Source: Sphaerisporangium krabiense (GTDB lineage: Bacteria > Actinomycetota > Actinomycetes > Streptosporangiales > Streptosporangiaceae). Taken from it: DNA of 64,000 nucleotides. Location of the stretch: assembly GCF_014200435.1 (NCBI RefSeq), contig NZ_JACHBR010000001.1, positions 6,080,001-6,144,000 of the forward strand. The letters are read 5' to 3'. The notes under the pieces were generated by a model. The model was not told the origin of the DNA, did not search any database, and saw only the letters and a list, made by a program, of their open reading frames with translations. Below are positions 1 to 33,166 of the stretch, piece after piece. Every line of letters begins with the position of its first letter. Position 1 is the first letter of the stretch. The position numbers and the translations under genes were made by a program.

Positions 1-258
1 GCGTGGGCGGAGGACCCGCCATCCCGGATCAGGCATTTCGTGACCAACATCCGCGCCTCCGAGGACGGCGACGCGATCGGCGTGCGGAGCAACCTCCTGA
101 TCTTCAGGACCCGCCAGGAGCAGACGCAGCCGCAGCTGCTGTCCGGCGAGCGCCGTGACGTGCTGCGCCGCGAGGACGGCGTGCTGAAGCTCTACCGCCG
201 CCGGGTCCTGCTCGACCTGACGGTGATCGGCACCCACAACCTGTCCATCTTCTTCTGA
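1..258 (+). CDS. Aromatic ring-hydroxylating dioxygenase, small (beta) subunit, C-terminal part
   Basis: This is the last 85 residues of a Rieske oxygenase beta subunit. The frame is open from base 1, so the start lies upstream of the window. The visible protein has the family pattern of an R-H-F-V-T-N-I-R strand, then an R-S-N-L-L-I-F-R-T-R strand, an arginine-rich turn, and a C-terminal strand ending in an S-I-F-F tail. Beta subunits have a cone-shaped NTF2-like fold and stabilise the alpha hexamer; they carry no metal. The gene ends 20 bases before the alpha subunit, so the two are co-transcribed in the order beta-alpha, the reverse of most biphenyl/naphthalene systems. The family call is firm; the substrate cannot be read from it. 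Confidence 0.85.
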   Translation, partial: AWAEDPPSRIRHFVTNIRASEDGDAIGVRSNLLIFRTRQEQTQPQLLSGERRDVLRREDGVLKLYRRRVLLDLTVIGTHNLSIFF

Positions 259-278: not shown

Positions 279-1655
279 ATGACGATCACTGGGCCCACGA
301 GGGCGGACGCGCTCCTCGACGCGCTGGACCGCGGCCTTCCCCACGGCGAGATCCCGGTCGGCCTGTTCGGCAACCAGGAGATCTACGACCGCGAGCTGCG
401 GCGGCTGTTCGGCCGCTGCTGGGTCTTCCTGGCCCACGAGTCGGAGATCGAGGCCAAGGGCGACTACGTGCTGCGCAAGATCGGTGAGGACAGCTTCATC
501 GTGATCCGCGACGAGCACGGCGGGATCAACGTCCTGTTCGACGCCTGCCGCCACCGCGGCGTGCAGGTCTGCCGCTCCGACTCCGGCAACACCTCCCACT
601 TCCGCTGCCCGTACCACGGCTGGACGTACAACACCAAGGGCGACCTGGTCGGCGCGCCGCTGTGGCGCAACGCGTTCGGCGGCATGCCCAAGGAGGGCAA
701 CGGCCTCACCAAGGCGGCCAAGGTGGCGTCCTACCACGGGCTGGTCTTCGCCACGCTGGACCCCTCGGCGCCCCCGCTGGAGGAGTACCTCGGCGGCATG
801 GCCTGGTACCTGGACCTGCTGTTCGGCCTCAACGAGCACGGCATGGAGATCGTCGGAGCGCCGCAGCGCTTCGTCATCGACGCGAACTGGAAGTCCGGCA
901 GCGACAACTTCGCCGGCGACGACTACCACCTCGGCACGCTGCACCGTTCGGTGTGGGAGATCGGCGCCTTCCCGGTGCCGTTCCGCGAGAACATGATGGG
1001 CTACCACGTCCAGGCCGCGCCGGGGCATTCGCTGTCGTTCTCGATGGCCCCCACCGAGGACGAGCCGGGCCCCAAGTTCTTCGGCTTCCCCGAGGAGCTC
1101 GTCGCCACGTTCGACACCAGCCGGATCAGCGCGCACCAACTCGACATCGCCCGCCGCTCGCGCGTCATGGTCGCCAACGTCTTCCCGAACTTCTCGATCC
1201 TGGCGCTGCCGATGACCGAGGACGGCGCCCACCACCCGCCGACCGGCGTGGTGACGATCCGCACCTGGCAGCCGCACGGCGTCGGCCAGGTCGAGATCTG
1301 GAACTGGTTCTGCGTCTACAAGAACATGACGCCCGCGCAGAAGGACCGGGCGTACCGGGCCGGGCTCGGCACGTTCTCCATGGGCGGCGCGTTCGAGATG
1401 GACGACACCGAGCCGTGGATCACCGTCAGCCGCACCGGCCGCTCGGTCGCCGCCGACCTGCTCGACTTCAAGCTCAACTACCAGATGGGCATGCCGGGCG
1501 TCGGCATCGCCAAGCCGGTCGAGGACTGGCCCGGCCCCGGCATCTCCTACTGGACCCGGTACGAGGAGGGCGTGCAGCGCAACCTCTACCGCTTCTACGG
1601 CGACATGATGCGCGCGGAGCCGGGCGCCTGGCCGAAGTTCTCCTTCGATGACTGA
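279..1655 (+). CDS. Rieske non-heme iron oxygenase, large (alpha) subunit
   Basis: 458-residue catalytic subunit of a ring-hydroxylating oxygenase. The Rieske [2Fe-2S] site is complete: C90-R-H92 and C110-P-Y-H113. The mononuclear iron site shows D214-x2-H217-x4-H222 in the segment G-D-D-Y-H-L-G-T-L-H, where D214 is the usual electron-bridging aspartate. Such enzymes insert O2 into an aromatic ring to give a cis-dihydrodiol, or act as monooxygenases. ATG at 279 is preceded by a GAGGAG-type ribosome binding site. The downstream ferredoxin, flavoprotein and dihydrodiol-dehydrogenase-type SDR supply the rest of an oxygenase system. The last 8 bases overlap the next gene. The substrate is unknown; the neighbours suggest a nitrogen-containing aromatic. 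Confidence 0.93.
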   Translation: MTITGPTRADALLDALDRGLPHGEIPVGLFGNQEIYDRELRRLFGRCWVFLAHESEIEAKGDYVLRKIGEDSFIVIRDEHGGINVLFDACRHRGVQVCRSDSGNTSHFRCPYHGWTYNTKGDLVGAPLWRNAFGGMPKEGNGLTKAAKVASYHGLVFATLDPSAPPLEEYLGGMAWYLDLLFGLNEHGMEIVGAPQRFVIDANWKSGSDNFAGDDYHLGTLHRSVWEIGAFPVPFRENMMGYHVQAAPGHSLSFSMAPTEDEPGPKFFGFPEELVATFDTSRISAHQLDIARRSRVMVANVFPNFSILALPMTEDGAHHPPTGVVTIRTWQPHGVGQVEIWNWFCVYKNMTPAQKDRAYRAGLGTFSMGGAFEMDDTEPWITVSRTGRSVAADLLDFKLNYQMGMPGVGIAKPVEDWPGPGISYWTRYEEGVQRNLYRFYGDMMRAEPGAWPKFSFDD

Positions 1656-2244
1656 GGTCCCCGCGGGCCTCGGCGGCCGGCTGACGCCGGGCGCGCGGCC
1701 GGCCGTGGTGGTCGTGGACCTGATCAACGGGTTCACCGACCCGGCCTGCCCGCCGGGCGCCGACCTCGGCGAGGTCGTGGCCGCCACCGCCCGGCTGCTC
1801 GCCCACGCCCGCGCCCGGGGCTGGCCGGTGTTCTTCACCACCATCTCCTACGCGCCCGGGGAACCGGACAGCCTGGTCTGGCTGCGCAAGATGCCCGCGC
1901 TGGCCGCGCTCGCCGAGGGCACCCCCTGGGTGGAGGTCGACGCGCGGCTCAAGGGCGGCGAGCCGGTCCTGGTGAAGAAGCAGGCGTCGGCGTTCCACGG
2001 CACCGGCCTGGCCGCGCTCCTGGCGGAGAGCGGCGCGGACACCCTCGTCGTGACCGGCGCGACGACCTCCGGGTGCGTCCGCGCCACCGTCATCGACGCC
2101 TGCGCGCTCAACTACCCCGTCTTCGTCCCCGCCGAGTGCGTCGGCGACCGGCAGGCGGGCCCGCACGCGGCGAATCTGTACGACATCGACGCCAAGTACG
2201 CCGACGTGATCGGGCTCGAGGAGGTGATGGCGCTGTGGAGCTGA
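1648..2244 (+). CDS. Isochorismatase-fold cysteine hydrolase (N-carbamoylsarcosine amidase/maleamate hydrolase type)
   Basis: 198-residue hydrolase with the family's D-K-C triad: D24 in V-V-V-V-D-L-I-N-G-F, K110 or K111 in V-K-K-Q-A-S-A-F, and C143 in G-A-T-T-S-G-C-V-R. Members cleave C-N bonds in amides such as maleamate, N-carbamoylsarcosine or nicotinamide. Its ATG lies inside the end of the oxygenase gene (ATGACTGA), which indicates translational coupling. With a NicX-like dioxygenase and a maleate isomerase in the same operon, a NicF-like role (maleamate to maleate plus ammonia) is a reasonable inference. Fold and catalytic residues are visible; substrate is inferred only from context. 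Confidence 0.85.
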   Translation: MTEVPAGLGGRLTPGARPAVVVVDLINGFTDPACPPGADLGEVVAATARLLAHARARGWPVFFTTISYAPGEPDSLVWLRKMPALAALAEGTPWVEVDARLKGGEPVLVKKQASAFHGTGLAALLAESGADTLVVTGATTSGCVRATVIDACALNYPVFVPAECVGDRQAGPHAANLYDIDAKYADVIGLEEVMALWS

Positions 2245-3386
2245 CGGGGGAGACCAGGCTGTTCACCCGGGAGCCCATGGACCTCGCCGCCGAGCTGGCC
2301 GCCGGCACCTACGGGCCGGTGATCCGCGACGACCTGATCGCCGAGATCGAGGCCGCCGGCCTGCGGGGACGCGGGGGCGCGGGGTTCCCCGCGCACGTCA
2401 AGTGGCGCGCGGTCGCCGCCAACCCCGGGCCGCGCGTGGTCGTGGCCAACGGGGAGGAGGGCGAGCCCGCCTCCCGCAAGGACCGCTGGCTGCTGACCCA
2501 CCGCCCCCACCTCGTCCTGGACGGCCTGCTGCTGGCCGCGCGGGCCGTCGGCGCCGCCAGGGCCGTCGTCTACCTCTCCCACGCCGACACGGTCGCCGCG
2601 GTCGAGGCGGCGCTGGCCGAGCGCCCGCCCGCCATGCCGGTGGACGTCCACGTCGTCGCGCCCACCTACGTCGCGGGGGAGGAGAGCGCCGCCTGCCGGT
2701 CCATCGGCGGCGGCCCCGCGCTGCCGCTGGCCAAGCCGCCGCGGGTCTGCGACGCGGGCGTGGACGGCCGTCCGACGCTCGTCTCCAACGTCGAGACGCT
2801 GGCGCACGCCGCCTGGATCGCCCGGCACGGCGCCGCCGCGTACCGGGGGCAGGGCACGCCGGGCTCGCCGGGCACCACGCTGGTCACGCTGTCCGGCGCG
2901 GTCGCGGCCCCGGGCGTGTACGAGGTCCCGTTCGGGCCGACCCTCGCCGAGCTGTTCGACGTGGCAGGAGGGTTCACCGGCACCCCGGCCGGGTTCGTGA
3001 TGGGCGGCTGGTTCGGCGGACTGCTCGGCCCCCGGCACACCGGCCTGCGCGTCACCTACGAGGACGTGCGGGCCGCCGGGTCTGGCCTCGGCTGCGGCGC
3101 CGTCACCGCCCTCGCCGCCGACCAGGACCCGCTCGCCGTCGCCGCCGAGATCACCGCCTGGTACGCCGCCGAGTCGGCCGGGCAGTGCGGCGTGTGCGTC
3201 CGGGGCACCGCCGCCATCAGGGACGCCTTCGCCGCCCTCCGGGACGGCGCCGCGTCCGCAAAGGACCGGGCCGACCTGGCCCGCTGGGGGGAGACGCTGC
3301 CCGGCCGGGGCGCGTGCGCGTTCCTCGACGGCGCGGCCGGGTGGGCCAGGACCGTCCTCACCGAGTTCGAGGGAGTCACGATATGA
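2235..3386 (+). CDS. NuoF-like NADH-dependent flavoprotein (complex I 51-kDa-type), likely oxygenase electron-transfer reductase
   Basis: 383-residue NuoF-family protein. The start chosen is GTG at 2235, inside the last codons of the amidase gene. Visible features are the FMN/NADH glycine-rich stretch G-R-G-G-A-G-F-P, the A-N-G-E-E-G-E-P-A-S motif, a central SLBB-like domain, and a C-terminal iron-sulfur region. NuoF binds its N3 [4Fe-4S] cluster with four cysteines in S-C-G-x-C-x-x-C plus a later Cys. Here the segment reads E-S-A-G-Q-C-G-V-C, so the first ligand is alanine and three remain (the last in G-R-G-A-C-A-F). No other complex I gene is near. The coupled ferredoxin suggests it passes NADH electrons to that ferredoxin and the Rieske oxygenase. 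Family confident, partner inferred. Confidence 0.82.
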   Translation: MELTGETRLFTREPMDLAAELAAGTYGPVIRDDLIAEIEAAGLRGRGGAGFPAHVKWRAVAANPGPRVVVANGEEGEPASRKDRWLLTHRPHLVLDGLLLAARAVGAARAVVYLSHADTVAAVEAALAERPPAMPVDVHVVAPTYVAGEESAACRSIGGGPALPLAKPPRVCDAGVDGRPTLVSNVETLAHAAWIARHGAAAYRGQGTPGSPGTTLVTLSGAVAAPGVYEVPFGPTLAELFDVAGGFTGTPAGFVMGGWFGGLLGPRHTGLRVTYEDVRAAGSGLGCGAVTALAADQDPLAVAAEITAWYAAESAGQCGVCVRGTAAIRDAFAALRDGAASAKDRADLARWGETLPGRGACAFLDGAAGWARTVLTEFEGVTI

Positions 3387-3571
3387 AGGCGTTCGTCGAC
3401 GCGACCAAGTGCAACGGCTACGGCACCTGCGCCGAGCTCGCGCCCACGCTCATCCAGCTCGACGACTGGGGCTACGCCTCGGTCATCGGCGACGGCACGG
3501 TGACGGACGAGGCCACGGCCCGCGCGGCCGCCGCGTCCTGCCCCGAGTGCGCGATCACCCTCCAGGACTGA
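3383..3571 (+). CDS. Small single-cluster ferredoxin ([3Fe-4S] or [4Fe-4S] type)
   Basis: 62-residue ferredoxin of the kind that serves actinobacterial P450s and Rieske oxygenases. It reads D-A-T-K-C-N-G-Y-G-T-C near the N-terminus and S-C-P-E-C-A-I near the C-terminus. The C-x5-C...C-P spacing is typical of the [3Fe-4S] class; the extra cysteine after C-P-E does not create the regular C-x2-C-x2-C motif. ATG at 3383 overlaps the TGA of the NuoF-like gene (ATATGA), so the two are translationally coupled and probably work together. It most likely carries single electrons from the flavoprotein to the Rieske cluster of the oxygenase. Confidence 0.85.
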   Translation: MKAFVDATKCNGYGTCAELAPTLIQLDDWGYASVIGDGTVTDEATARAAAASCPECAITLQD

Positions 3572-3573
3572 CC

Positions 3574-4329
3574 GTGGACCTCGGACTGAAGGACCAGGTC
3601 GCGCTGGTCACCGCCGCGAGCCGCGGCATCGGCGCCGCGATCGCCGCGCGGCTCGCCGACGAGGGCGCCACCGTCGCCGTCGCCGCCCGCGCCCCGCAGG
3701 CCGGGCCCGGCCAGGCGGCCTACCCGGTGGACCTGTCGGACGCCGCGGCCGTCGACGCCCTCGTCCCGCGCGTGGTCGCCGACCACGGGCGGCTGGACGT
3801 CCTGGTGGTGAACACCCCCGGGCCGCGCATCCTGCCGTTCCTCGACACCACCGCCGGCGACTACGCGACCGCCTACGACCTGCTGGTCCGCCCGGCGGTC
3901 CAGCTCGCCACGGCGGGCGCCCGGGTCATGGCGGAGCGGGGCGGCGGGTCGATCCTGTTCGTCACCTCCACCTGGGTGAGGCAACCCGCGCCCGGCGGCG
4001 TCCTGTCGGCCACCATGCGCGCGGCCATATCGGCGCTGTCCAAGCAGATGTCGATGGAGCTCGCCCCGCACGGGATCCGCGTCAACCAGCTCATGCCCGG
4101 CGCCACCGGCACCGACCGGATGCGCGCCATCACCACCGCCAAGGCCGCCGCCAACGGCACCACCGAGGACGAGGAGGTCGCCAAGGTCGTCTCGGCCATC
4201 CCCCTGGGCCGCTGGGCGGAGCCGGAGGAGATCGCGCGGGCCGCCGCCTACCTGGTCTCGCCCGCCGCCGCCTTCGTGACCGGCGCGGCCTTCGCGGTCG
4301 ACGGCGGCGCCATCCGCTCAACCCTCTAA
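3574..4329 (+). CDS. Divergent short-chain dehydrogenase/reductase lacking the Tyr-Lys pair
   Basis: 251-residue SDR started at GTG 3574, two bases after the ferredoxin stop. The nucleotide-binding motif T-A-A-S-R-G-I-G is present (TGxxxGxG variant), as is the C-terminal substrate loop and the V-T-G-A-A-F-A-V-D-G-G tail. The catalytic Y-x3-K is not visible: where Y-S-A-S-K-A-A is expected the sequence reads V-L-S-A-T-M-R-A-A, so Ser and Arg occupy those places. The N-A-G motif also reads N-T-P-G. A branch of FabG-like SDRs with this altered active site exists, so it may use a different mechanism or be structural. Its place between the electron-transfer genes and the ring-cleavage genes suggests a role on the ring-hydroxylation product. 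Confidence 0.8.
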   Translation: MDLGLKDQVALVTAASRGIGAAIAARLADEGATVAVAARAPQAGPGQAAYPVDLSDAAAVDALVPRVVADHGRLDVLVVNTPGPRILPFLDTTAGDYATAYDLLVRPAVQLATAGARVMAERGGGSILFVTSTWVRQPAPGGVLSATMRAAISALSKQMSMELAPHGIRVNQLMPGATGTDRMRAITTAKAAANGTTEDEEVAKVVSAIPLGRWAEPEEIARAAAYLVSPAAAFVTGAAFAVDGGAIRSTL

Positions 4330-4348: not shown

Positions 4349-5368
4349 ATGCCGAAGACCCTGCGCGAACTCTTCGTCGACCAGTACGGCCTGTGCAAGC
4401 TCACCTCGTCGGAGACGGTCGCGGTCATCTCCGAGCTGGGGCAGAAGACCGAGTACGCCGAGGCGGCCGTCGCCGCCGCCCGCGACCTCGGCGCCGGCGC
4501 CCTCGTGCTGACCGCCTCCAGCCTGTCCAACCCGATGCTGCCCCCCTACGAGGCCGACGGGCGGGAGGTCGCCGCGCTGCTCGCCGCCGCGGCCGAGTGC
4601 GACCTGGTCATCGACGTGACGGTGGGCGGCCTCATCCACTCCGACGTGCGGACCCGGATCACCGGCAACGGCAAGCGCATGCTGTTCGTGGCCGAGCCCG
4701 CCGACGTGCTGGAGCGGCTCATGGGCGACGAGGACCTGCGCGCCGTCGTCGAGGCCGGCGGCCGCCTGCTGAAGGCCGGGACCACGCTGCGCGTCACCAG
4801 CGCCGCGGGCACCGACCTGACCGCCGACATCTCCGGCGAGGACCTGCCCATCACCCACCAGTGGGGTTACGTGGACGAGCCGGGCCGCTGGGACCACTGG
4901 CCGAGCGGCTTCGTGGCCTGCTTCCCGCACGACCGCACGGCGCAGGGCCAGATCGTGCTGCAGCCCGGCGACGCGCTCATCCCGTGGCAGCGCGCGGTGC
5001 GCGACACCGTCACGCTGACCATCGAGGACGGCTTCATCACCGACGTCAAGGGCGACGGCAACGACGCGTTCGTGCTGCGCGACTACCTGGAGGCGTGGGA
5101 CGACCCGGAGGTGTACGCGGTCTCCCACATGGGCTGGGGCGTCCACCCGGTCGCCCGCTGGTCGGCGTTCGAGGTCTACGAGCCGCGCTCGCTGTACGGC
5201 CAGGAGCTGCGCTCCACCGCGGGCAACTTCATGTGGTCCACCGGCCCGAACCGGTTCGCGAACCGGGAGACCCCGGCCCACCTGGACATCCCCATGCGCG
5301 GCTGCACCGTCGAGATCGACGGCGCGGCGGTCGTCCGCGACGGCCGCCTGACGGGAGAGGGCGCCTGA
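4349..5368 (+). CDS. NicX-like 2,5-dihydroxypyridine 5,6-dioxygenase / M29 aminopeptidase-fold protein
   Basis: 339-residue protein of the fold shared by M29 (aminopeptidase T) enzymes and NicX, the Fe(II) dioxygenase that opens 2,5-dihydroxypyridine to N-formylmaleamate. NicX uses a His-His-Asp facial triad. Here H260 in A-V-S-H-M-G-W-G and the pair H311-x-D313 in P-A-H-L-D-I-P-M fall at nearly the same spacing. ATG 4349 follows an AAGGAG ribosome binding site. The operon also encodes an isochorismatase-fold amidase and a maleate isomerase, matching the lower nicotinate/picolinate route, which supports the NicX reading over a peptidase. The preferred substrate is not proven. Confidence 0.72.
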   Translation: MPKTLRELFVDQYGLCKLTSSETVAVISELGQKTEYAEAAVAAARDLGAGALVLTASSLSNPMLPPYEADGREVAALLAAAAECDLVIDVTVGGLIHSDVRTRITGNGKRMLFVAEPADVLERLMGDEDLRAVVEAGGRLLKAGTTLRVTSAAGTDLTADISGEDLPITHQWGYVDEPGRWDHWPSGFVACFPHDRTAQGQIVLQPGDALIPWQRAVRDTVTLTIEDGFITDVKGDGNDAFVLRDYLEAWDDPEVYAVSHMGWGVHPVARWSAFEVYEPRSLYGQELRSTAGNFMWSTGPNRFANRETPAHLDIPMRGCTVEIDGAAVVRDGRLTGEGA

Positions 5369-5369
5369 C

Positions 5370-6473
5370 ATGGACGCCAAGACGCTGGAGCGCGCGATCC
5401 TGGCCCTGGCCAAGGACACCGGCCTGCTCGCCAGGTTCCGCGAGGACCCCGCCGCCGTGGGCGCCGAGCTGGACCTGGACGCCGAATGGGCGGGCGTCAT
5501 CGCGCGCGGCGACCGCGACCGGCTGCGCTCGGCGGGCCTGGTGGACGGCATCACGATCCTGGTGAGCCGCTGGTTCGCCGACGACCTCGGGGACTCCACG
5601 AGCGCGGGCAGCTTCCACGTCGAGACCACGGCCGCACTGCCCGACCCGGACGTCCCGGCCAACCTCGTCTTCGCCGGCGGCTGCTCGCACGTGCCCGACC
5701 TGCTGGCCCGGCCCGAGATCGACCCGGCCGAGGCGGTCGAGCGGCTCGGCGACGGCTACCGGCGGCTGGCCGCGCGGCTGGCCGACGCCGACCCCGAGCT
5801 GCTGATCGTCACGGCCGACTGCCACTTCCAGAGCTTCCGCACCGGCGCGTTCGTGGTGGGCACCGGAGCCTTCCACACCGGCTCGATGGAGTTCTTCAAG
5901 CGGCCCGACCTGGACCTGACGCTGACCGGTGACCCCGAGTACGCCCGCGCGCTGGTCGACTCGATCCGCGCCGAGGGCATGGAGGTCGAGGAGTCCACCC
6001 GGATCGACCTGGACCACGGCCTGATCGTGCCGCTGCGGCAGCTCCTGCCCCGCCCCGACCTGCCGGTCATCCCGATCATCACCCAGCCGGCCCGCGGGTT
6101 CTCCCCGTTCGGCGCCCGCGCCTTCGGCGAGGTCATGCGGTACGTGGTGGCCGACCGGGGCAAGCGGGTCGCGATGCTGGCCACCGGCGGGCTGTCGCAC
6201 TGGCTCGACCCGGGCAAGTTCGGCGGCGTGGACGTCGAGTTCGACACCTACGTGCTGCAGATGCTCCAGGCCGGGCGCGGCTGCGACCTCGGCAACCTGG
6301 AGCCGTACGCGCTGCTCGACCACGGCCAGTACGAGTTCCTGAACTGGCTGATCATGCTGGGCCTGACCGGGCCCGGCGTGCGCGGCGAGGTGCTGGCCTA
6401 CGAGCCGATGGAGGCGTCGGGCGGCGGCTGGACCGTCGTGGACATGCTCCTGCCGGAACCGGCCCGTGCCTAG
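5370..6473 (+). CDS. Fused LigA-LigB class III extradiol dioxygenase
   Basis: 367-residue fusion. Residues 1 to about 90 are an all-helical LigA-like module (protocatechuate 4,5-dioxygenase alpha chain). From about residue 95 a LigB catalytic domain begins, with the N-terminal metal histidine in F-A-G-G-C-S-H-V-P and a second in V-T-A-D-C-H-F-Q. Class III extradiol enzymes open catechol-type rings beside the hydroxyls using Fe(II). The ATG lies one base after the previous stop. Natural LigAB fusions occur in gallate dioxygenases and some actinobacterial pathways. It is odd next to a NicX-like enzyme, because each could be the ring-opening step; they may act on two rings or at two stages. Confidence 0.82.
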   Translation: MDAKTLERAILALAKDTGLLARFREDPAAVGAELDLDAEWAGVIARGDRDRLRSAGLVDGITILVSRWFADDLGDSTSAGSFHVETTAALPDPDVPANLVFAGGCSHVPDLLARPEIDPAEAVERLGDGYRRLAARLADADPELLIVTADCHFQSFRTGAFVVGTGAFHTGSMEFFKRPDLDLTLTGDPEYARALVDSIRAEGMEVEESTRIDLDHGLIVPLRQLLPRPDLPVIPIITQPARGFSPFGARAFGEVMRYVVADRGKRVAMLATGGLSHWLDPGKFGGVDVEFDTYVLQMLQAGRGCDLGNLEPYALLDHGQYEFLNWLIMLGLTGPGVRGEVLAYEPMEASGGGWTVVDMLLPEPARA

Positions 6474-7338
6474 CGCCGCGCCCGGTCCCCGCCTGCGGGT
6501 CGGTCTCACCCAGTGGCACGCCACCCGGGACCTCGCCGCCAACACCGCGCGCGCCGTGGAGATGATCCACGCGTGCGAGGGGGCCGACCTGGTGCTGCTG
6601 CCGGAGAACGGCCTCATGCTCGGCACCAACGCCGAGATGCGGGCCGCCGCGCTCACCGTGGACGCGCCGGAGATCGCCGCGCTGCGGCGGGCCGCCGCGG
6701 ACACCGGACGCGCGGTCGTCCTCGGCGGATTCAAGCGCCGGCACTCCGGCGGCGTGCACAACACCGCGCTGGTCATCGACGGGCGCGGCGAGATCGCCGG
6801 CGGCTACGACAAGATCCACCTGTTCGACGCCGTGGTCGACGGGCGGTCGTTCGAGGCGTCGGGGGTCGAGCTGGCGGGGGACCGGCCCGTGCTGCTGACG
6901 GTGGCCGGGGTCACCGTCGGGCTCACCATCTGCTACGACGTGCGCTTCCCCGAGCTGTACCGCGCCCTGGCGCTGGCGGGGGCCGAGGTGTTCCTCGTCC
7001 CCGCGGCGTTCACCCAGCGCACCGGCGAGGCGCACTGGGAGCTGCTGCTGCGCGCCCGCGCCGTGGAGAACGCGGCCTACGTGGTCGCCTCGGCGACGGT
7101 GCGCGGCGCCGAAGGCGGCGACGCGTTCCCCACCTACGGGCACGCCCTGGCCGCCGGGCCGTGGGGCGAGGTGCTCGCCGACCTCGGCGAGGCCCCGGCC
7201 GCCTGCCGGGTGGTCGAGCTCGACCTCGCCGAGGTCGCCCGCCGCAGGGAATCGCTTCCCGTGCTGCGCGGGGTGCGGCCCGGCGCGTACCGTGTCCCGG
7301 CAGAGATCATCGACGTCGACGGAGGAGGCCGCGGATGA
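6466..7338 (+). CDS. Nitrilase-superfamily carbon-nitrogen hydrolase
   Basis: 290-residue C-N hydrolase. The Glu-Lys-Cys triad is complete: E47 in L-L-P-E-N-G, K115 in G-Y-D-K-I-H-L-F, and C155 in L-T-I-C-Y-D-V-R-F-P-E-L-Y. The sequence around the cysteine is typical of the amidase branch (omega-amidase/NIT2-like, beta-ureidopropionase-like) rather than true nitrilases. It starts at GTG 6466, eight bases inside the LigAB gene. In this operon it could hydrolyse a ring-opening amide, such as an N-formyl or omega-amide intermediate, the step done by NicD in the known nicotinate route; no NicD homologue is seen here. That role is inference. Confidence 0.87.
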   Translation: MPSAAPGPRLRVGLTQWHATRDLAANTARAVEMIHACEGADLVLLPENGLMLGTNAEMRAAALTVDAPEIAALRRAAADTGRAVVLGGFKRRHSGGVHNTALVIDGRGEIAGGYDKIHLFDAVVDGRSFEASGVELAGDRPVLLTVAGVTVGLTICYDVRFPELYRALALAGAEVFLVPAAFTQRTGEAHWELLLRARAVENAAYVVASATVRGAEGGDAFPTYGHALAAGPWGEVLADLGEAPAACRVVELDLAEVARRRESLPVLRGVRPGAYRVPAEIIDVDGGGRG

Positions 7339-7574
7339 GCGATGCGAACGATGGGATCGTCCGGGTCGGGGAGAGTTTCGGCATCGGCAACGAGTTCACC
7401 GGAGTCCGGGTCCGCAAGGTCTGGACCCGGCAGGGCGAGCGGCTGGAGCTGAGCGTGCCGAGGCGCGGGTACCGCATCCTGCTGGACGCCATGCAACTGG
7501 AGATCGTCGCCGCCCAGGAACCGGAGAAGTTCAGCGAGCTGTTCGCGCGGAAGCTGGGTTCCGAGGATGAGTGA
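7335..7574 (+). CDS. Small conserved operon protein (79 aa), aromatic-catabolism companion
   Basis: 79-residue protein beginning at ATG 7335, which overlaps the TGA of the nitrilase gene (ATGA), and ending inside the start of the GntR gene. It is mixed alpha/beta with no signal peptide or membrane segment. Key segments are N-E-F-T-G-V-R-V-R-K-V, G-E-R-L-E-L-S-V-P-R-R-G and I-L-L-D-A-M-Q-L-E. Similar short proteins occur beside Rieske dioxygenase genes in mycobacteria and rhodococci and are often labelled 'dihydrodiol dehydrogenase', although they have no dehydrogenase fold. I recognise the association, not a function. The tight coupling on both sides argues that it is real. Confidence 0.78.
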   Translation: MSDANDGIVRVGESFGIGNEFTGVRVRKVWTRQGERLELSVPRRGYRILLDAMQLEIVAAQEPEKFSELFARKLGSEDE

Positions 7575-8391
7575 GATCCGGCCGGGCAACACGGTGGACG
7601 AGCTGTACCAGACCCTGCGCGAGCGGATCATCGAGGGCGTGTACGTCCCCGGCTTCCGGCTCTCGCAGGGCGGGCTCGCCGCGGAGCTGGCCACCTCGCG
7701 CACCCCGCTGCGCGAGGCCCTGCAACGGCTGGAGGCGGACGGCCTGGTCGTATCGCAGGCCAACCGCGGCATGGAGGTCGCCCCGGCCAGCCACGCCGAC
7801 GTCGAGCAGCACTACGTGCTGCGCCTGCTGGTCGAGCCCCCCACGATCGCCGGGCTCGTCGGCGAGTTCACCGCTCAGGACCTGGAGCGGATGGCCGCCG
7901 ACCTGGAGACCATGGAGCGCGACGGCCGCCGCGTCCGCGACTTCCAGGAGGCGCACCTGCGCTTCCACCAGACCGCGCTGCGCCGCTACCCCAAGGGCGT
8001 CGCCGACCTCATCGACATGCTGCACACCCGGATCTACCGGCACCAGCGGCTCTACCTGTCGCACCCGGGCGTCCTGGAGGACTTCACGGCCGTGGACCGG
8101 ATCTTCATGGAGGCGATCCGGGACGGCGACGCGGTCCTCGCCCGGCAGGTGCTGGAGTTCCACCTGATCGACGCGGCGCTCGGCCTCGTCCTGGACGGCG
8201 AGCCCGACCACGTCTTCGGCGCGCTGCGCGTGGCCGCCCGGGGCCTCGGGATCGAGCTGGACACCACACCTGACCGGCGGATCGAGCGGCGCCCCGCGCG
8301 GCTGCGCTGGCTCCGCCAGGAGGTCCGCCACGACCTGGCCCTGACCACCACCAACCTCACCAACGCACCTCCCGAAGGAGACCCGCCATGA
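7567..8391 (+). CDS. GntR-family regulator with FCD effector domain
   Basis: 274-residue regulator. Residues 8-75 form a winged helix with the hallmark R-L-S-Q-G-G-L-A-A-E-L, S-R-T-P-L-R-E-A-L-Q-R-L-E-A-D-G-L-V pattern. Residues 85-215 form the helical FCD ligand pocket with metal-type histidines (for example H-L-R-F-H-Q-T and F-H-L-I-D). FadR-type GntR proteins usually sense an organic acid and repress the pathway they sit in. It overlaps the small protein upstream by 8 bases and the maleate isomerase gene downstream (ATGA), so it is inside the operon it probably controls. The dyad at 9146-9167 is a candidate binding site. Confidence 0.9.
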   Translation: MSEIRPGNTVDELYQTLRERIIEGVYVPGFRLSQGGLAAELATSRTPLREALQRLEADGLVVSQANRGMEVAPASHADVEQHYVLRLLVEPPTIAGLVGEFTAQDLERMAADLETMERDGRRVRDFQEAHLRFHQTALRRYPKGVADLIDMLHTRIYRHQRLYLSHPGVLEDFTAVDRIFMEAIRDGDAVLARQVLEFHLIDAALGLVLDGEPDHVFGALRVAARGLGIELDTTPDRRIERRPARLRWLRQEVRHDLALTTTNLTNAPPEGDPP

Positions 8392-9128
8392 CGGCGATCC
8401 GGGTCGGCATGATCGTGCCGAGCTCGAACACGACGATGGAGACCGAGATCCCCGCGATGCTGCGCGCCCGGGAGGAGATCCGCCCCGAGCGGTTCACCTT
8501 CCACTCCTCCCGGATGCGCATGCGGCACGTGGATCCCGAGCAGCTCCGCGAGATGGACGAGCAGTCGCTGCGCTGCGCGGTCGAGCTCGCCGACGCCGAC
8601 GTGGACGTCATGGCCTACGCGTGCCTCGTGGCCATCATGGCCCAGGGCCCCGGCTACCACCGGACCAGCCAGGGCAACCTGGCCGAGAGGGCCGGGGGGA
8701 GCATCCCGGTCGTCACCTCGGCGGGCGCGCTCGTCGAAGGACTCCAGCACCTCGGGGCGAAGAAGATCTCGGTGATCGCCCCCTACATGAAGCCCCTCAC
8801 CCAGACCGTCTGCGACTACATCCAGGCCGAGGGCGTCGAGGTACACGACGCGATCAGCCTGGAGGTCTCCGACAACCTGGCGGTCGGGCGGCTCGACCCG
8901 GCCGGCCTCGTCGACATCGCGGGGAAGGTCGACACCTCGGGCGTGGACGCGCTCGTGCTCAGCGCGTGCGTGCAGATGCCCTCGCTGCCCGTCGTGCAGC
9001 GGATCCAGGACGCGTTCGACATCCCGGTGGTGACCGCCTCGGTCGCCACGGTGTGGCGGACACTCCGCGTGCTCGGCCTCGACCCGGTCGTCCCGGGCGC
9101 GGGGTGGCTGCTCGCGGATCGCGGCTGA
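8388..9128 (+). CDS. Maleate cis-trans isomerase-like protein (Asp/Glu racemase superfamily)
   Basis: 246-residue member of the Asp/Glu racemase superfamily, closest in layout to maleate isomerase/arylmalonate decarboxylase. The two catalytic cysteines are C79 in A-Y-A-C-L-V-A and C194 in L-S-A-C-V-Q-M-P-S, positions that agree closely with the pair used by maleate isomerases. The N-terminal P-S-S-N-T-T-M-E loop, which binds carboxylate, is present. Maleate isomerase turns maleate into fumarate, the final step of the nicotinate maleamate route. With the NicX-like and amidase genes in the operon this is the expected end enzyme. The ATG overlaps the GntR stop. Confidence 0.82.
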   Translation: MTAIRVGMIVPSSNTTMETEIPAMLRAREEIRPERFTFHSSRMRMRHVDPEQLREMDEQSLRCAVELADADVDVMAYACLVAIMAQGPGYHRTSQGNLAERAGGSIPVVTSAGALVEGLQHLGAKKISVIAPYMKPLTQTVCDYIQAEGVEVHDAISLEVSDNLAVGRLDPAGLVDIAGKVDTSGVDALVLSACVQMPSLPVVQRIQDAFDIPVVTASVATVWRTLRVLGLDPVVPGAGWLLADRG

Positions 9129-11602: not shown

Positions 11603-13558
11603 ATGGTGGACGTCCTGTTCCGCCCCGGCCGGATCGGCACCCTCGACCTGGCCAACCGGGTGATCAAGTCGCCGCAGACCACCGCCCTGTCCAACCAGGA
11701 CGGCACGGTCACCCGGCGGCTGGTCGACCACTACAAGCGGCTGGCGGAAGGAGGCCCCGGCCTGGTCCTCGTGGAGTACAGCCACGTCGACGACGACGCC
11801 AGCAAGTCCATCCACGCCCAGCTCGGGATCTCCCGCCGCGAGCACGTCCCCGGCCTCGGCTGGCTCGTGGACGAGGTCCACGCGGCCGGGTCGAAGATCG
11901 GGATCCAGCTCGAACACTGCGGCAGGCAGAAGTTCCTCGGCACCCCGCCGATCAAGTCGGCGTCCGCGGTGTCGTGGGACTACGTGGAGTCCCAGTACGG
12001 CAACAAGCCCGTCCCGCTCACCAGAGAGGAGATCGCCGGCGTGGTCGGCGCGTTCGCCGACGCGGCCGAGCGCGCCTACCTCGCCAGGTTCGACCTGGTC
12101 GAGGTGCACGCCGGGCACGGATACCTGCTGACCAACTTCCTGTCCCCGCACACCAACAAGCGCGCCGACGAGTACGGCGGCTCCTTCGAGAACCGGGCGC
12201 GGCTGACGCTGGAGGTCGTGGCGGCCATCCGCGCGCGGGTCCCGCGCGACTTCCCGCTCAGCGTGCGCCTGTCGGTCACCGACTACGAGCCCGACGGCAT
12301 CCCCGTCGAGGAGACCGTCGAGCTGGCCCGGCTGCTCGAAGCGTGCGGCGTGGACGTGATCCACGCCTCCGGCGGGCACCACGCCCTCATGGAGTACGAG
12401 GTCAGCCCGTGGTTCATGCCGCGCGCCCTGCACCGGTGGGGCTGGGAGAAGATCAAGGAGGCCGTCTCGATCCCCGTGATCGCGTCCGGGTCCCTGGTCA
12501 GCCCGCAGGTGGCCGCCGAGGTGCTGGAGAGCGGCGGCGCCGACTTCGTCTCGCTCGGACGCGCGATGCTGGCCGACCCCGACTGGACCCGCAAGGCCCG
12601 CGAGGGACGGTTCCTGGACATCGTGCCGTGCATCCGCTGCAACGACGGCTGCCTCGACCGCGGCCTCAACGTGGGGCGCTCCACCGGGTGCGCCGTCAAC
12701 CCGCGGATGGGAGAGGAGTACTCCTACCCCGTCGAACCGGCGGCGGCGCCGCGCGACGTCGCGGTGGCAGGCGGCGGCCCGGCCGGGCTGCGCGCGGCGG
12801 CCGTGCTCGCCGACCGCGGCCACCGGGTCACGCTGTTCGAGCCCGGCGAACTCGGCGGCGCCCTCAACCGCGCCACCCTGCCCGCCCACCGCCAGGACCT
12901 GGCAGCCCTCCGCGACCACCTGGTCCACCAGGTACGCGCCAGGGACGTGCGCGTCGTCCCCGCCAAGGCCGACGTGCCGTCCCTGACCGGCTACGACCTC
13001 GTCTACATCGCCACCGGCGCCACCCCCGGCGCCCTCCCTGGTGCGTCGGCAGGCGAGGCCGCCGACGCGGGGACTCCAGCAGGCGAGGTCACCTCGGTGG
13101 CCGTGATCCCGGCGCGTGAGGTCACCGACCCGGCCGCCGTGGCCGCGCCGGTGGTCGTGGTGGGCGGTGGGATCACCGGGGCCGACACGGCGCTCTGGCT
13201 CGCCGGCGCCGGGCACGAGGTGACGCTCGTCGAGGCCGGGCCGGCCATCCTCGCCAACCGCGAGGTCTTCACCGACGCCATGGCCCTGCCCGGCATCCTG
13301 GAGGGGAAGGGGGTCACCATCATCACCGGCGCCGAGGTCGCCGAGGTCACCGGCGAGGGCGTGCGGACGGCGACCGGCCGGGTCGTCCCGGCCGCCACGG
13401 TCCTGGTCGCCACCGGCCGCGTGCCGGACCCGTCCCTGGCCGACGCCCTGCGCGCGGCGGCGCCGCACGTCGAGGTCGTCACCCTCGGCGACGCCGCCCG
13501 CCCCGGCCGCGTGATGGACGCCCTCCACGGCGCGTTCTTCGCGGCCCGCAGGGCCTGA
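11603..13558 (+). CDS. Old-yellow-enzyme/2,4-dienoyl-CoA reductase-type NADH:flavin oxidoreductase
   Basis: 651-residue multi-cofactor reductase. Residues 1 to about 345 are an FMN TIM barrel (start P-G-R-I-G-T-L-D-L-A-N-R, active-site segment Q-L-E-H-C-G-R-Q). A [4Fe-4S] site follows in C-I-R-C-N-D-G-C-L-D-R and T-G-C-A-V-N-P, spacing C-x2-C-x3-C-x11-C. The C-terminal half carries two dinucleotide folds (A-V-A-G-G-G-P-A-G-L and V-V-V-G-G-G-I-T-G-A). Relatives reduce conjugated double bonds (2,4-dienoyl-CoA reductase) or demethylate amines (trimethylamine dehydrogenase). Here reduction of an unsaturated ring or ring-opened intermediate is plausible. ATG 11603 follows an AGGAGAGG site, 12 bases after the VOC gene. 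Confidence 0.88.
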   Translation: MVDVLFRPGRIGTLDLANRVIKSPQTTALSNQDGTVTRRLVDHYKRLAEGGPGLVLVEYSHVDDDASKSIHAQLGISRREHVPGLGWLVDEVHAAGSKIGIQLEHCGRQKFLGTPPIKSASAVSWDYVESQYGNKPVPLTREEIAGVVGAFADAAERAYLARFDLVEVHAGHGYLLTNFLSPHTNKRADEYGGSFENRARLTLEVVAAIRARVPRDFPLSVRLSVTDYEPDGIPVEETVELARLLEACGVDVIHASGGHHALMEYEVSPWFMPRALHRWGWEKIKEAVSIPVIASGSLVSPQVAAEVLESGGADFVSLGRAMLADPDWTRKAREGRFLDIVPCIRCNDGCLDRGLNVGRSTGCAVNPRMGEEYSYPVEPAAAPRDVAVAGGGPAGLRAAAVLADRGHRVTLFEPGELGGALNRATLPAHRQDLAALRDHLVHQVRARDVRVVPAKADVPSLTGYDLVYIATGATPGALPGASAGEAADAGTPAGEVTSVAVIPAREVTDPAAVAAPVVVVGGGITGADTALWLAGAGHEVTLVEAGPAILANREVFTDAMALPGILEGKGVTIITGAEVAEVTGEGVRTATGRVVPAATVLVATGRVPDPSLADALRAAAPHVEVVTLGDAARPGRVMDALHGAFFAARRA

Positions 13559-31918: not shown

Positions 31919-33166
31919 GTGACGACGGCGGTGGAGACGGGCATCGATCTGGCGGACCTGGCGTTCTGGCGCAGGCCCCCGCACGAGCGCGAGCGCGACT
32001 TCGCGCGGCTGCGCGCGCTCCCGCACCCGGTGTTCTTCCCCGAGCGCCGGGTGCCGCTGCTGCGCTCGGGCGCCGGTTTCCACGCGCTCGTGCGGCACGC
32101 CGACGTCGTGGAGGCCAGCCGCAACGCCAAGGTGTTCTCCAGCGAGCCCGCCGTCACCAACCCCGAGCCGCCGGGCTGGGTGAAGCACGTCTTCGGCGAC
32201 TCGATGGTCAACCTCGACGACCCCCGGCACGCCCGCCTGCGCAGGATCGTCTCGCGGGCGTTCTCCCCCAAGATGCTCGCCCGGCTGGACTCGGGCATCG
32301 CCGAGGCCGCCGCGCGCATCGTCGACGACGTGGCGGCGCAGGGGCCGCGCGACTTCGTCGCCCAGGTCGCCGCCCGGCTTCCCATCACCGTCATCTGCGA
32401 CATGATGGGCATCCCCGGCGACATCCGGGCCAAGGTGCACGCGCACGTGGACGCCTCCACCGCCTACACCGGGGTGCGCATGAGCCTGGCCCGCACGGCC
32501 GCGATGGCCGGGCGCAACATGGCCGCCCTGTTCGCCCTGCAGCGGCTGGTGATCCGGCTCGGACGGGCGCGCGAGCGCGAACCCGGGGACGATCTCGTCT
32601 CGGCCCTGGTGACCGCCAACGTCGACGGCGAGCGGCTGACCCCGCGCGAGCTCGGGTCGTTCTTCACGCTGCTGCTGGTCGCGGGCAACGAGACGGCGCG
32701 CAACACGATGGCCCACGGCCTCAAGCTGCTCACCGACAACCCGGGCGAGCGCGAGCGCCTCGCCGGCGACTTCGAGGGGCACATCGGCGGCTTCATCGAG
32801 GAGACCGTCCGGTACGTCTCGCCCATCATGCAGTTCCGCCGCACGGTCACCGAGCCGTACGAGCTGCGCGGGGTGCGCCTGTCGCCCGGCGACAAGGTCG
32901 TGCTGTTCTACGGCTCGGCCAACCGCGACGAAGAGGTCTTCCCCGACGCCGGGCGCTTCGACATCACGCGCAAGCCGAACCCGCACGTCGGGTTCGGCGG
33001 CCCCGGCCCGCACTTCTGCCTGGGCGCCAACCTGGCCCGCCAGGAGATCAAGATCATGTACCGCGAGCTGTTCACCCGCCTGCCCGGGATCAGGACGGTC
33101 GGCGACCCTGACCTGCTGCTCTCCAACTTCGACAACAGCGTCCGCTCACAAGACTTCACGTTCTGA
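31919..33166 (+). CDS. Cytochrome P450, CYP124/125/142-like
   Basis: 415 residues from GTG 31919. The oxygen-activation helix reads L-L-V-A-G-N-E-T-A-R-N (Asn where many have His or Asp), E-T-V-R is the ExxR motif, and the heme loop is V-G-F-G-G-P-G-P-H-F-C-L-G-A-N-L-A. This heme loop is typical of CYP124/125/142-type enzymes that hydroxylate steroid side chains or fatty/terpenoid chains, and of related families. No ferredoxin gene is adjacent. An 81-bp gap separates it from the kinase gene, so it may be transcribed with it or separately. Confidence 0.92.
   Translation: MTTAVETGIDLADLAFWRRPPHERERDFARLRALPHPVFFPERRVPLLRSGAGFHALVRHADVVEASRNAKVFSSEPAVTNPEPPGWVKHVFGDSMVNLDDPRHARLRRIVSRAFSPKMLARLDSGIAEAAARIVDDVAAQGPRDFVAQVAARLPITVICDMMGIPGDIRAKVHAHVDASTAYTGVRMSLARTAAMAGRNMAALFALQRLVIRLGRAREREPGDDLVSALVTANVDGERLTPRELGSFFTLLLVAGNETARNTMAHGLKLLTDNPGERERLAGDFEGHIGGFIEETVRYVSPIMQFRRTVTEPYELRGVRLSPGDKVVLFYGSANRDEEVFPDAGRFDITRKPNPHVGFGGPGPHFCLGANLARQEIKIMYRELFTRLPGIRTVGDPDLLLSNFDNSVRSQDFTF

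Follow-up and report, generated by a model that had tools for sequence, protein, structure and literature searches.

The redox partners of Rieske oxygenases and of cytochromes P450 are a practical bottleneck. In the accessible part of the 2008 classification of Rieske oxygenases, only three kinds of reductase are distinguished (GR, FNRC and FNRN), and [3Fe-4S] ferredoxins are given there for several phthalate dioxygenases of actinobacteria (PMC2358900). Here we describe a Rieske dioxygenase operon of Sphaerisporangium krabiense in which a NuoF-like flavoprotein gene and a small ferredoxin gene lie side by side. The operon is on the + strand and already under way at the start of the analysed stretch of 64,000 nucleotides (contig NZ_JACHBR010000001.1, positions 6,080,001 to 6,144,000), which we call the window and whose numbering is used for its genes. 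Like the type V Rieske oxygenase PhdABCD, it combines an alpha/beta oxygenase with a ferredoxin carrying a three-cysteine CxxXxxC...CP motif. In contrast to PhdABCD, which has a GR-type flavoprotein reductase, the predicted reductase of the operon is NuoF-type. As the published classification, in the part available, contains GR- and FNR-type reductases only, a NuoF-type reductase would be a new variant.

The flavoprotein shares its whole-chain fold, flavin domain and SLBB domain with NuoF of complex I (Nqo1, the 51-kDa subunit; TIGR01959; 2fug chain 1), and has the same C-terminal iron-sulfur domain, but with three of the four N3 cysteines. It further differs from complex I NuoF in an alanine at the first N3 cysteine position, in Cys287 for threonine and Arg170 for Phe205, and in being paired with a small ferredoxin. 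Scanning of the operon and upstream proteins revealed no nuo domain, and those of the operon include no NuoE-like partner. The fold and the flavin domain are also those of the NuoF-like subunits of NAD-linked hydrogenases, formate dehydrogenases and Nfn-ABC, which work within larger complexes. The hydrogenase subunits 5xf9 and 7p5h and the formate dehydrogenase subunit L033 (loci fetched in this study are numbered L) retain the motif ESCGxC, whereas the window protein does not. The ferredoxin resembles Fdx3 of Mycobacterium marinum in size and in its CxxYxxC cluster motif, including the tyrosine; according to the accessible part of that report, Fdx3 is encoded with the ferredoxin reductase FdR1 beside CYP147G1 (PMC6237146), whereas the neighbor of the window ferredoxin is NuoF-like. 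In a study of the redox partners of M. neoaurum, 11 ferredoxin reductases were tested, among them one whose nucleotide motif is described as "nonrecognizable" (PMC13254585). A term search of the accessible text of a 2025 review gave no mention of Nuo (PMC12445004), and no report of a NuoF-type oxygenase partner was found by title among the literature matches listed, a source with most subscription journals outside its coverage.

From sequence comparison, the NuoF-like protein and the ferredoxin probably act together as an NAD(P)H:ferredoxin reductase pair dedicated to the operon's own alpha/beta Rieske dioxygenase. The genes and their overlap, the synteny, the conserved residues and the fold are observations; the cofactors, the cluster type, the direction of electron flow and the substrate are inferred as set out below.

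The NuoF-Like Protein Retains the 51-kDa Fold

The NuoF-like protein of 383 aa is encoded by an open reading frame at 2235-3386 (+), with a GTG start codon preceded by GAGGAGG. Pfam identifies Complex1_51K (1.7e-36), SLBB (2.6e-7) and NADH_4Fe-4S (1.3e-14) in the protein. Its score of 232.4 bits against NCBIfam nuoF_fam lies below the equivalog cut-off of 558.65, whereas the complex I NuoF of the same genome (L003), which is of the four-cysteine type, scores 586. Four other members of its clade (see below) score 156-227, and the five complex I sequences tested all score 573-590.

For a wider comparison, the window protein was aligned with 140 homologues from the fetched loci, excluding duplicates of the window gene and of L003. 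The resulting 141 rows comprise 31 canonical rows, namely L003, 29 relatives with at least 70% identity and the formate dehydrogenase subunit L033, and 110 non-canonical rows (window included), which we refer to as the clade. Five of the 30 L003-type canonical rows were scanned and 5/5 pass the NuoF cut-off. The sampling of homologues is skewed to Mycobacterium, with poor coverage outside Actinomycetota.

An AlphaFold2 model, built from an alignment of 42 clade sequences, has a mean predicted local distance difference test score (pLDDT) of 93.4 and a predicted template modeling score (pTM) of 0.91. Its best structural match is a complex I chain (51-kDa; Z 49.9, root-mean-square deviation 1.8, 383 residues aligned). 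As the model matches complex I chains over the whole length, the 51-kDa fold is intact in the NuoF-like protein. Residues Gly45, Gly47, Gly48, Lys56, Asn72 and Glu77 are present in 110/110 clade rows, Glu75 in 109 and Arg46 in 108. These residues align with loops of the Nqo1 flavin domain (2fug chain 1), which we take to bind flavin mononucleotide (FMN) and NADH.

Loss of the First N3 Ligand Marks a Clade

Presumably, Nqo1 Cys353, Cys356, Cys359 and Cys400 are the ligands of the N3 cluster (residue numbers counted along the alignment to 2fug chain 1). The first three align with Ala315, Cys318 and Cys321 of the window protein, which has Cys361 at the fourth position. The preliminary description of this locus had reported one N3 cysteine replaced by alanine, and the alignment of Ala315 with Nqo1 Cys353 bears this out. 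The Ala315 codon is GCC (3177..3179, +); the codons of the kept ligand positions lie at 3186..3197 (Cys318 to Cys321, +) and 3315..3317 (Cys361, +).

Among the 110 non-canonical rows, position 315 is alanine in 108 and serine in 2, and Cys318, Cys321 and Cys361 are each found in 110/110. Canonical rows have cysteine at 315, 318 and 321 in 31/31 and at 361 in 30, with one gap. When the clade is reduced to 48 representatives at 75% identity, 46 have alanine and 2 serine at 315, and the other three cysteines are present in 48/48. The change is thus clade-wide, which rules out a sequencing error or a private loss.

In a tree of 56 rows, the Ala/Ser group lies on one side of a branch with a support of 100 in the Shimodaira-Hasegawa-like approximate likelihood ratio test (SH-aLRT); the tree was made with a quick method, with columns 287 and 315 masked and only eight canonical rows as outgroup. 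The group splits into a distal branch of 13 rows (SH-aLRT 98) and a closer branch of 35 rows (88), within which 11 operon rows form one group (98). The Cys-to-Ala change marks a clade broader than the oxygenase operons. An alignment of NuoF-like proteins from oxygenase operons had been proposed as a check: the change is real but not specific to such operons, as members of the clade are also encoded near P450s and ferric-reductase-like membrane proteins.

The genome encodes a second three-cysteine NuoF-like protein (L002; C2, ~980 kb), fused to a CxxHxxC ferredoxin. The gene preceding it resembles a membrane protein by eye.

Cys287 Is a Candidate Replacement Ligand

A cysteine specific to one branch might replace the lost ligand. 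Position 287 (codon at 3093..3095, +), a threonine in complex I NuoF (30/31 canonical rows), is cysteine in 17/17 operon rows and in 77/79 other closer-branch rows, the exceptions being L096 (Ala) and L097 (Ser). The 14 distal-branch rows have no cysteine at this position (Ala 13, Pro 1). Within the operon group, only columns 287, 318, 321 and 361 have cysteine in at least 90% of the rows. Four invariant cysteines for one cluster suggest that Cys287 may have taken over as ligand. The argument for its closeness to the cluster is the order of strand 289-293 and helix 299-313 in the predicted structure.

Cys298 was considered as the missing ligand and rejected. It is present in 93/110 clade rows but in 0/17 operon rows, where aspartate (12), arginine (4) or threonine (1) stands instead, and 28/31 canonical rows have it in addition to the four ligands. 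On both counts it is a less likely ligand.

The NuoF-Like Protein Is Paired With a Ferredoxin

The ferredoxin gene (3383..3571, +; 62 aa) begins within the stop region of the NuoF-like gene. A 4-bp overlap (ATGA) is shared by the stop of the one and the start of the other, in agreement with the overlap of the two genes in a Rieske operon noted earlier, and the pair is found in all 16 other operons of the same organization. The protein matches Fer4_15 (9.1e-13) and Fer4_13, has PDB relatives 4id8 and 1rof, and carries the motif CxxYxxC...CP, from which a [3Fe-4S]- or [4Fe-4S]-type ferredoxin is predicted.

Scoring as paired a ferredoxin that is fused or at most 900 bp downstream, we find a small ferredoxin adjacent or fused in 107/110 clade members (window included), versus 0/31 canonical proteins. 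By group, these are 16/16 other operon members, 79/79 other closer-branch members and 11/14 distal members (the three without are L018, L025 and L026). In four distal-branch members (L002, L021, L022 and L031) the ferredoxin is fused to the C-terminus. An apparent fifth fusion, in L071, was dropped as a likely assembly artefact, since its open reading frame contains an undetermined residue and the junction is scrambled. The central residue of the motif, counted with a simple pattern, is tyrosine in 16/16 other operon ferredoxins, phenylalanine in 74/79 of the remaining closer branch and histidine in 6/11 distal ferredoxins.

Genomic Context of the Pair

The core order beta, alpha, isochorismatase, NuoF, ferredoxin, short-chain dehydrogenase/reductase (SDR), NicX-like, LigB-like and carbon-nitrogen hydrolase is found in 16 other loci, from Actinomadura, Thermomonospora, Streptomyces, Pseudonocardia, Amycolatopsis, Rhodococcus, Nocardia and Janibacter, and further from two Acidimicrobiaceae bins, Sphingomonas echinoides and a Rhodococcus pyridinivorans YF3 plasmid (L027). 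One of the loci, L039, starts within NuoF, with the genes upstream out of view. The NuoF-ferredoxin pair is present in 17/17 syntenic operons, window included. Four loci have a gap between alpha and the hydrolase, which measures 2.7 kb in L043 and ~0.9 kb in L038, L041 and L042.

Elsewhere in the clade the surroundings are different. There are 64 other closer-branch loci longer than 8 kb; 62 of them each have homologues of Amidohydro_2, alpha/beta-hydrolase and Rieske-domain proteins, and a P450 lies within ~10 kb in 50/64. Rieske alpha-type genes are found near the pair in L013, L015, L016 and L029. The annotation places the distal pairs of L028, L030 and L032 next to genes for a ferric-reductase-like membrane protein and an FMN transferase. 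A sensor kinase and a regulator lie nearby, and the pairs are possibly a membrane electron-transfer module of their own. The common element across these contexts seems to be a ferredoxin-using acceptor.

Most of the loci L047-L113, of Mycobacterium type, contain two Amidohydro_2 proteins, a Rieske-domain protein, an alpha/beta hydrolase, the NuoF-like protein, the ferredoxin, a thiolase/OB-fold fusion and P450s.

Electron Supply to the Rieske Dioxygenase

The proposed electron chain would start with the binding of NAD(P)H by the complex-I-like FMN domain. FMN would split the two electrons and hand them on one at a time via the iron-sulfur cluster at the kept three-cysteine N3 site, from which they would pass to the CxxYxxC ferredoxin, the Rieske [2Fe-2S] center of the alpha subunit and finally the mononuclear iron. 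The SDR would oxidize the dihydrodiol and thereby regenerate NAD(P)H. That the pair acts as the reductase of the oxygenase, as the preliminary description had proposed, is well supported: the adjacency is conserved, the two proteins are fused in some relatives, and 14/16 other syntenic loci lack a conventional reductase. The function itself is predicted from sequence.

No GR- or FNR-type reductase had been seen in the operon at first description, and one situated just upstream of the window would have offered a conventional explanation. The nine GR/FNR-type proteins of the genome, used as queries (E 1e-15), gave no match in the window, where neither a Reductase_C nor an NAD_binding_1 locus is found, or in the 12 kb upstream; likewise, no match was obtained in 14/16 syntenic loci, or in 93 other clade loci (68 longer than 8 kb, 24 shorter than 5 kb). 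These searches cover reductases with a Reductase_C or NAD_binding_1 domain. An alternative is that a conventional GR- or FNR-type reductase encoded elsewhere feeds the oxygenase, while the NuoF-ferredoxin pair fulfils some other function within the pathway. The accessible part of the M. neoaurum study would agree with this, as it describes the genes of bacterial ferredoxin reductases and ferredoxins as usually distant from those of P450s (PMC13254585). A reductase acting in trans is possible, but locally the pattern is a different one: the pairing occurs in 17/17 syntenic operons, 14/16 of the others lack such a reductase, and in the clade the pair is found fused and near other oxygenase genes. 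We therefore regard this alternative as unlikely.

Several observations nevertheless weigh against a dedicated reductase pair. Outside the window, the genome has nine conventional loci (five with Reductase_C, four with NAD_binding_1) whose products could supply the oxygenase in trans, and two syntenic loci have a conventional candidate within 10 kb, a GR-type homologue ending ~2 kb upstream of beta in L043 and an FNR-type homologue in L038. The operon set was gathered with the NuoF family as query, and the presence of NuoF in it is for that reason partly due to selection. With the alpha subunit as query, 396 genomes of the phylum yielded, besides its own, two relatives, at 44 and 48% identity; the 15-20 kb fetched for them contain no NuoF. 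No NuoF is annotated close to the alpha relatives (~43%) on plasmids of Halocatena and Agrobacterium, in a gene table that is incomplete. With the NicX-like protein as query, 394 genomes of the class gave one other match (91%), which does have NuoF but is apparently on the same contig as L035, from Thermomonospora echinospora. As alpha relatives elsewhere lack a nearby NuoF, the pairing belongs to the lineage of this operon and not to the type of oxygenase in general. Finally, Nqo1 Phe78 and Phe205, which we take to be adenine contacts, align with Ala59 and Arg170 of the NuoF-like protein (Arg170 in 104/110 rows), and owing to these replacements the coenzyme preference may differ (NADH versus NADPH).

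The pair could also re-reduce the Fe(III) of the NicX-like and LigB-like extradiol dioxygenases rather than feed the Rieske enzyme. XylT-type ferredoxins act on extradiol dioxygenases in this manner, and the window and each of the 16 other syntenic loci contain both extradiol genes. But relatives of the pair occur near Rieske and P450 genes in loci that yielded neither of the extradiol proteins, and the Rieske oxygenase needs a donor, of which no other was found in the operon; we judge such a role highly improbable. A different question is whether the N3 site still holds a cluster. The preliminary description allowed for an absent cluster or a [3Fe-4S] cluster. With one of the four ligands replaced by alanine, the cluster may have been lost, FMN donating directly to the ferredoxin, and the accessible part of the 2008 classification describes GR-type reductases as functional in the absence of a [2Fe-2S] cluster (PMC2358900). 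Had the site been lost, it would be expected to decay, whereas here the three other cysteines are invariant in 110 sequences and in the 48 representatives with less than 75% mutual identity. An absent cluster is thus unlikely, and direct transfer from FMN very unlikely; a [3Fe-4S] cluster, or a [4Fe-4S] cluster with a replacement ligand, would fit better.

A broader interpretation of the dedicated NuoF-ferredoxin pair is possible, though we hold it to be doubtful in its entirety. The locus might exemplify a Rieske-oxygenase electron chain of a sixth kind and, beyond that, a new family of ferredoxin reductases derived from the complex I flavoprotein, in which the first N3 ligand was lost once and Cys287, from another loop, replaced it in the oxygenase-linked branch. 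The re-ligated [4Fe-4S] (or [3Fe-4S]) cluster would then donate to a three-cysteine ferredoxin serving Rieske oxygenases, P450s and membrane haem proteins. A NuoF-derived reductase encoded with, and in relatives fused to, its ferredoxin would by itself add a new class of redox partner. It could account for oxygenase clusters that apparently lack a reductase, and would offer a small soluble system in which to study the consequences of the evolutionary loss of a complex I cluster ligand.

The Oxygenase and the Lower Pathway

The beta subunit of the Rieske dioxygenase enters the window with its 3' end only (1..258, +), the gene starting upstream (Ring_hydroxyl_B, 5.4e-33, on L004:11536-12255). 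The alpha subunit (279..1655, +) has the Pfam domains Rieske and Ring_hydroxyl_A, and its nearest PDB relatives are a naphthalene dioxygenase and a phthalate 3,4-dioxygenase (2b1x, 2.2e-113; 9jp5, 5.2e-89). It is followed by an isochorismatase-fold amidohydrolase, assigned by Pfam (1648..2244, +), and, downstream of the NuoF-ferredoxin pair, by an SDR, perhaps a dihydrodiol dehydrogenase (3574..4329, +; adh_short_C2, 1.2e-42), a homologue of 2,5-dihydroxypyridine 5,6-dioxygenase (NicX) (4349..5368, +; PDB 7cn3, 1.4e-65), a LigB-type extradiol dioxygenase (5370..6473, +; LigB, 5e-31) and a carbon-nitrogen hydrolase (6466..7338, +; Pfam, 1.8e-50). A small protein separates the hydrolase from a GntR-like regulator (7567..8391, +), which has 54% identity to a GntR-annotated gene in L027; in L043 there is no match for the small protein or the regulator. 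Next are a maleate isomerase homologue (8388..9128, +; PDB 4fq7, 1.6e-84) and a gene that resembles a membrane transporter by eye, without a Pfam match.

The NicX and maleate isomerase homologues co-occur in the operon, as in the maleamate-type pathway of pyridine ring cleavage. The nearest PDB relative of the isochorismatase-fold protein is an N-carbamoylsarcosine amidohydrolase (26st, 1.3e-55), and not a maleamate amidase such as NicF; 3ot4, deposited as "putative isochorismatase" and which we take to be maleamate amidase, follows at 3.7e-41. No NicD-type deformylase (alpha/beta hydrolase) was found among the operon proteins scanned, and the carbon-nitrogen hydrolase may stand in for the NicD-type N-formylmaleamate deformylase. 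In this reading from homology, the ring would be carried to C4 acids by the two extradiol dioxygenases, together with both amidase-like hydrolases and the maleate isomerase homologue. The probable substrate is accordingly a pyridine or fused pyridine, and the operon probably serves the breakdown of a nitrogen-containing ring compound.

The source of R. pyridinivorans YF3 is a quinoline-degrading bioreactor. Directly upstream of the operon on its plasmid (L027, 3081-10904) are genes for molybdenum-hydroxylase subunits, an XdhC-like protein and MoaA, MoaD and MoaE, hinting that the first step of the pathway hydroxylates the ring of a quinoline- or pyridine-type compound. In the available passages on that bioreactor, which is hypoxic, Rhodococcus is reported to convert quinoline to 2-hydroxyquinoline, which Thauera then degrades; the operon is not mentioned in these passages.

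Other Features of the Window

After the operon, 11603-13558 encodes an enzyme of 651 aa with Oxidored_FMN and Pyr_redox domains (Pfam matches including Pyr_redox_2). Homologues are found in 10/16 syntenic loci, some of them upstream of beta. A homologue in L158 weakly resembles two of the nine GR/FNR-type reductases of the genome (~1e-7). A cytochrome P450 gene lies at 31919-33166 (Pfam, 4.6e-22), ~28 kb downstream of the NuoF-ferredoxin pair. Further downstream, at 37659-40352, a TPR-CHAT protein is encoded (CHAT domain, 1.1e-68), CHAT being a caspase-like protease family.

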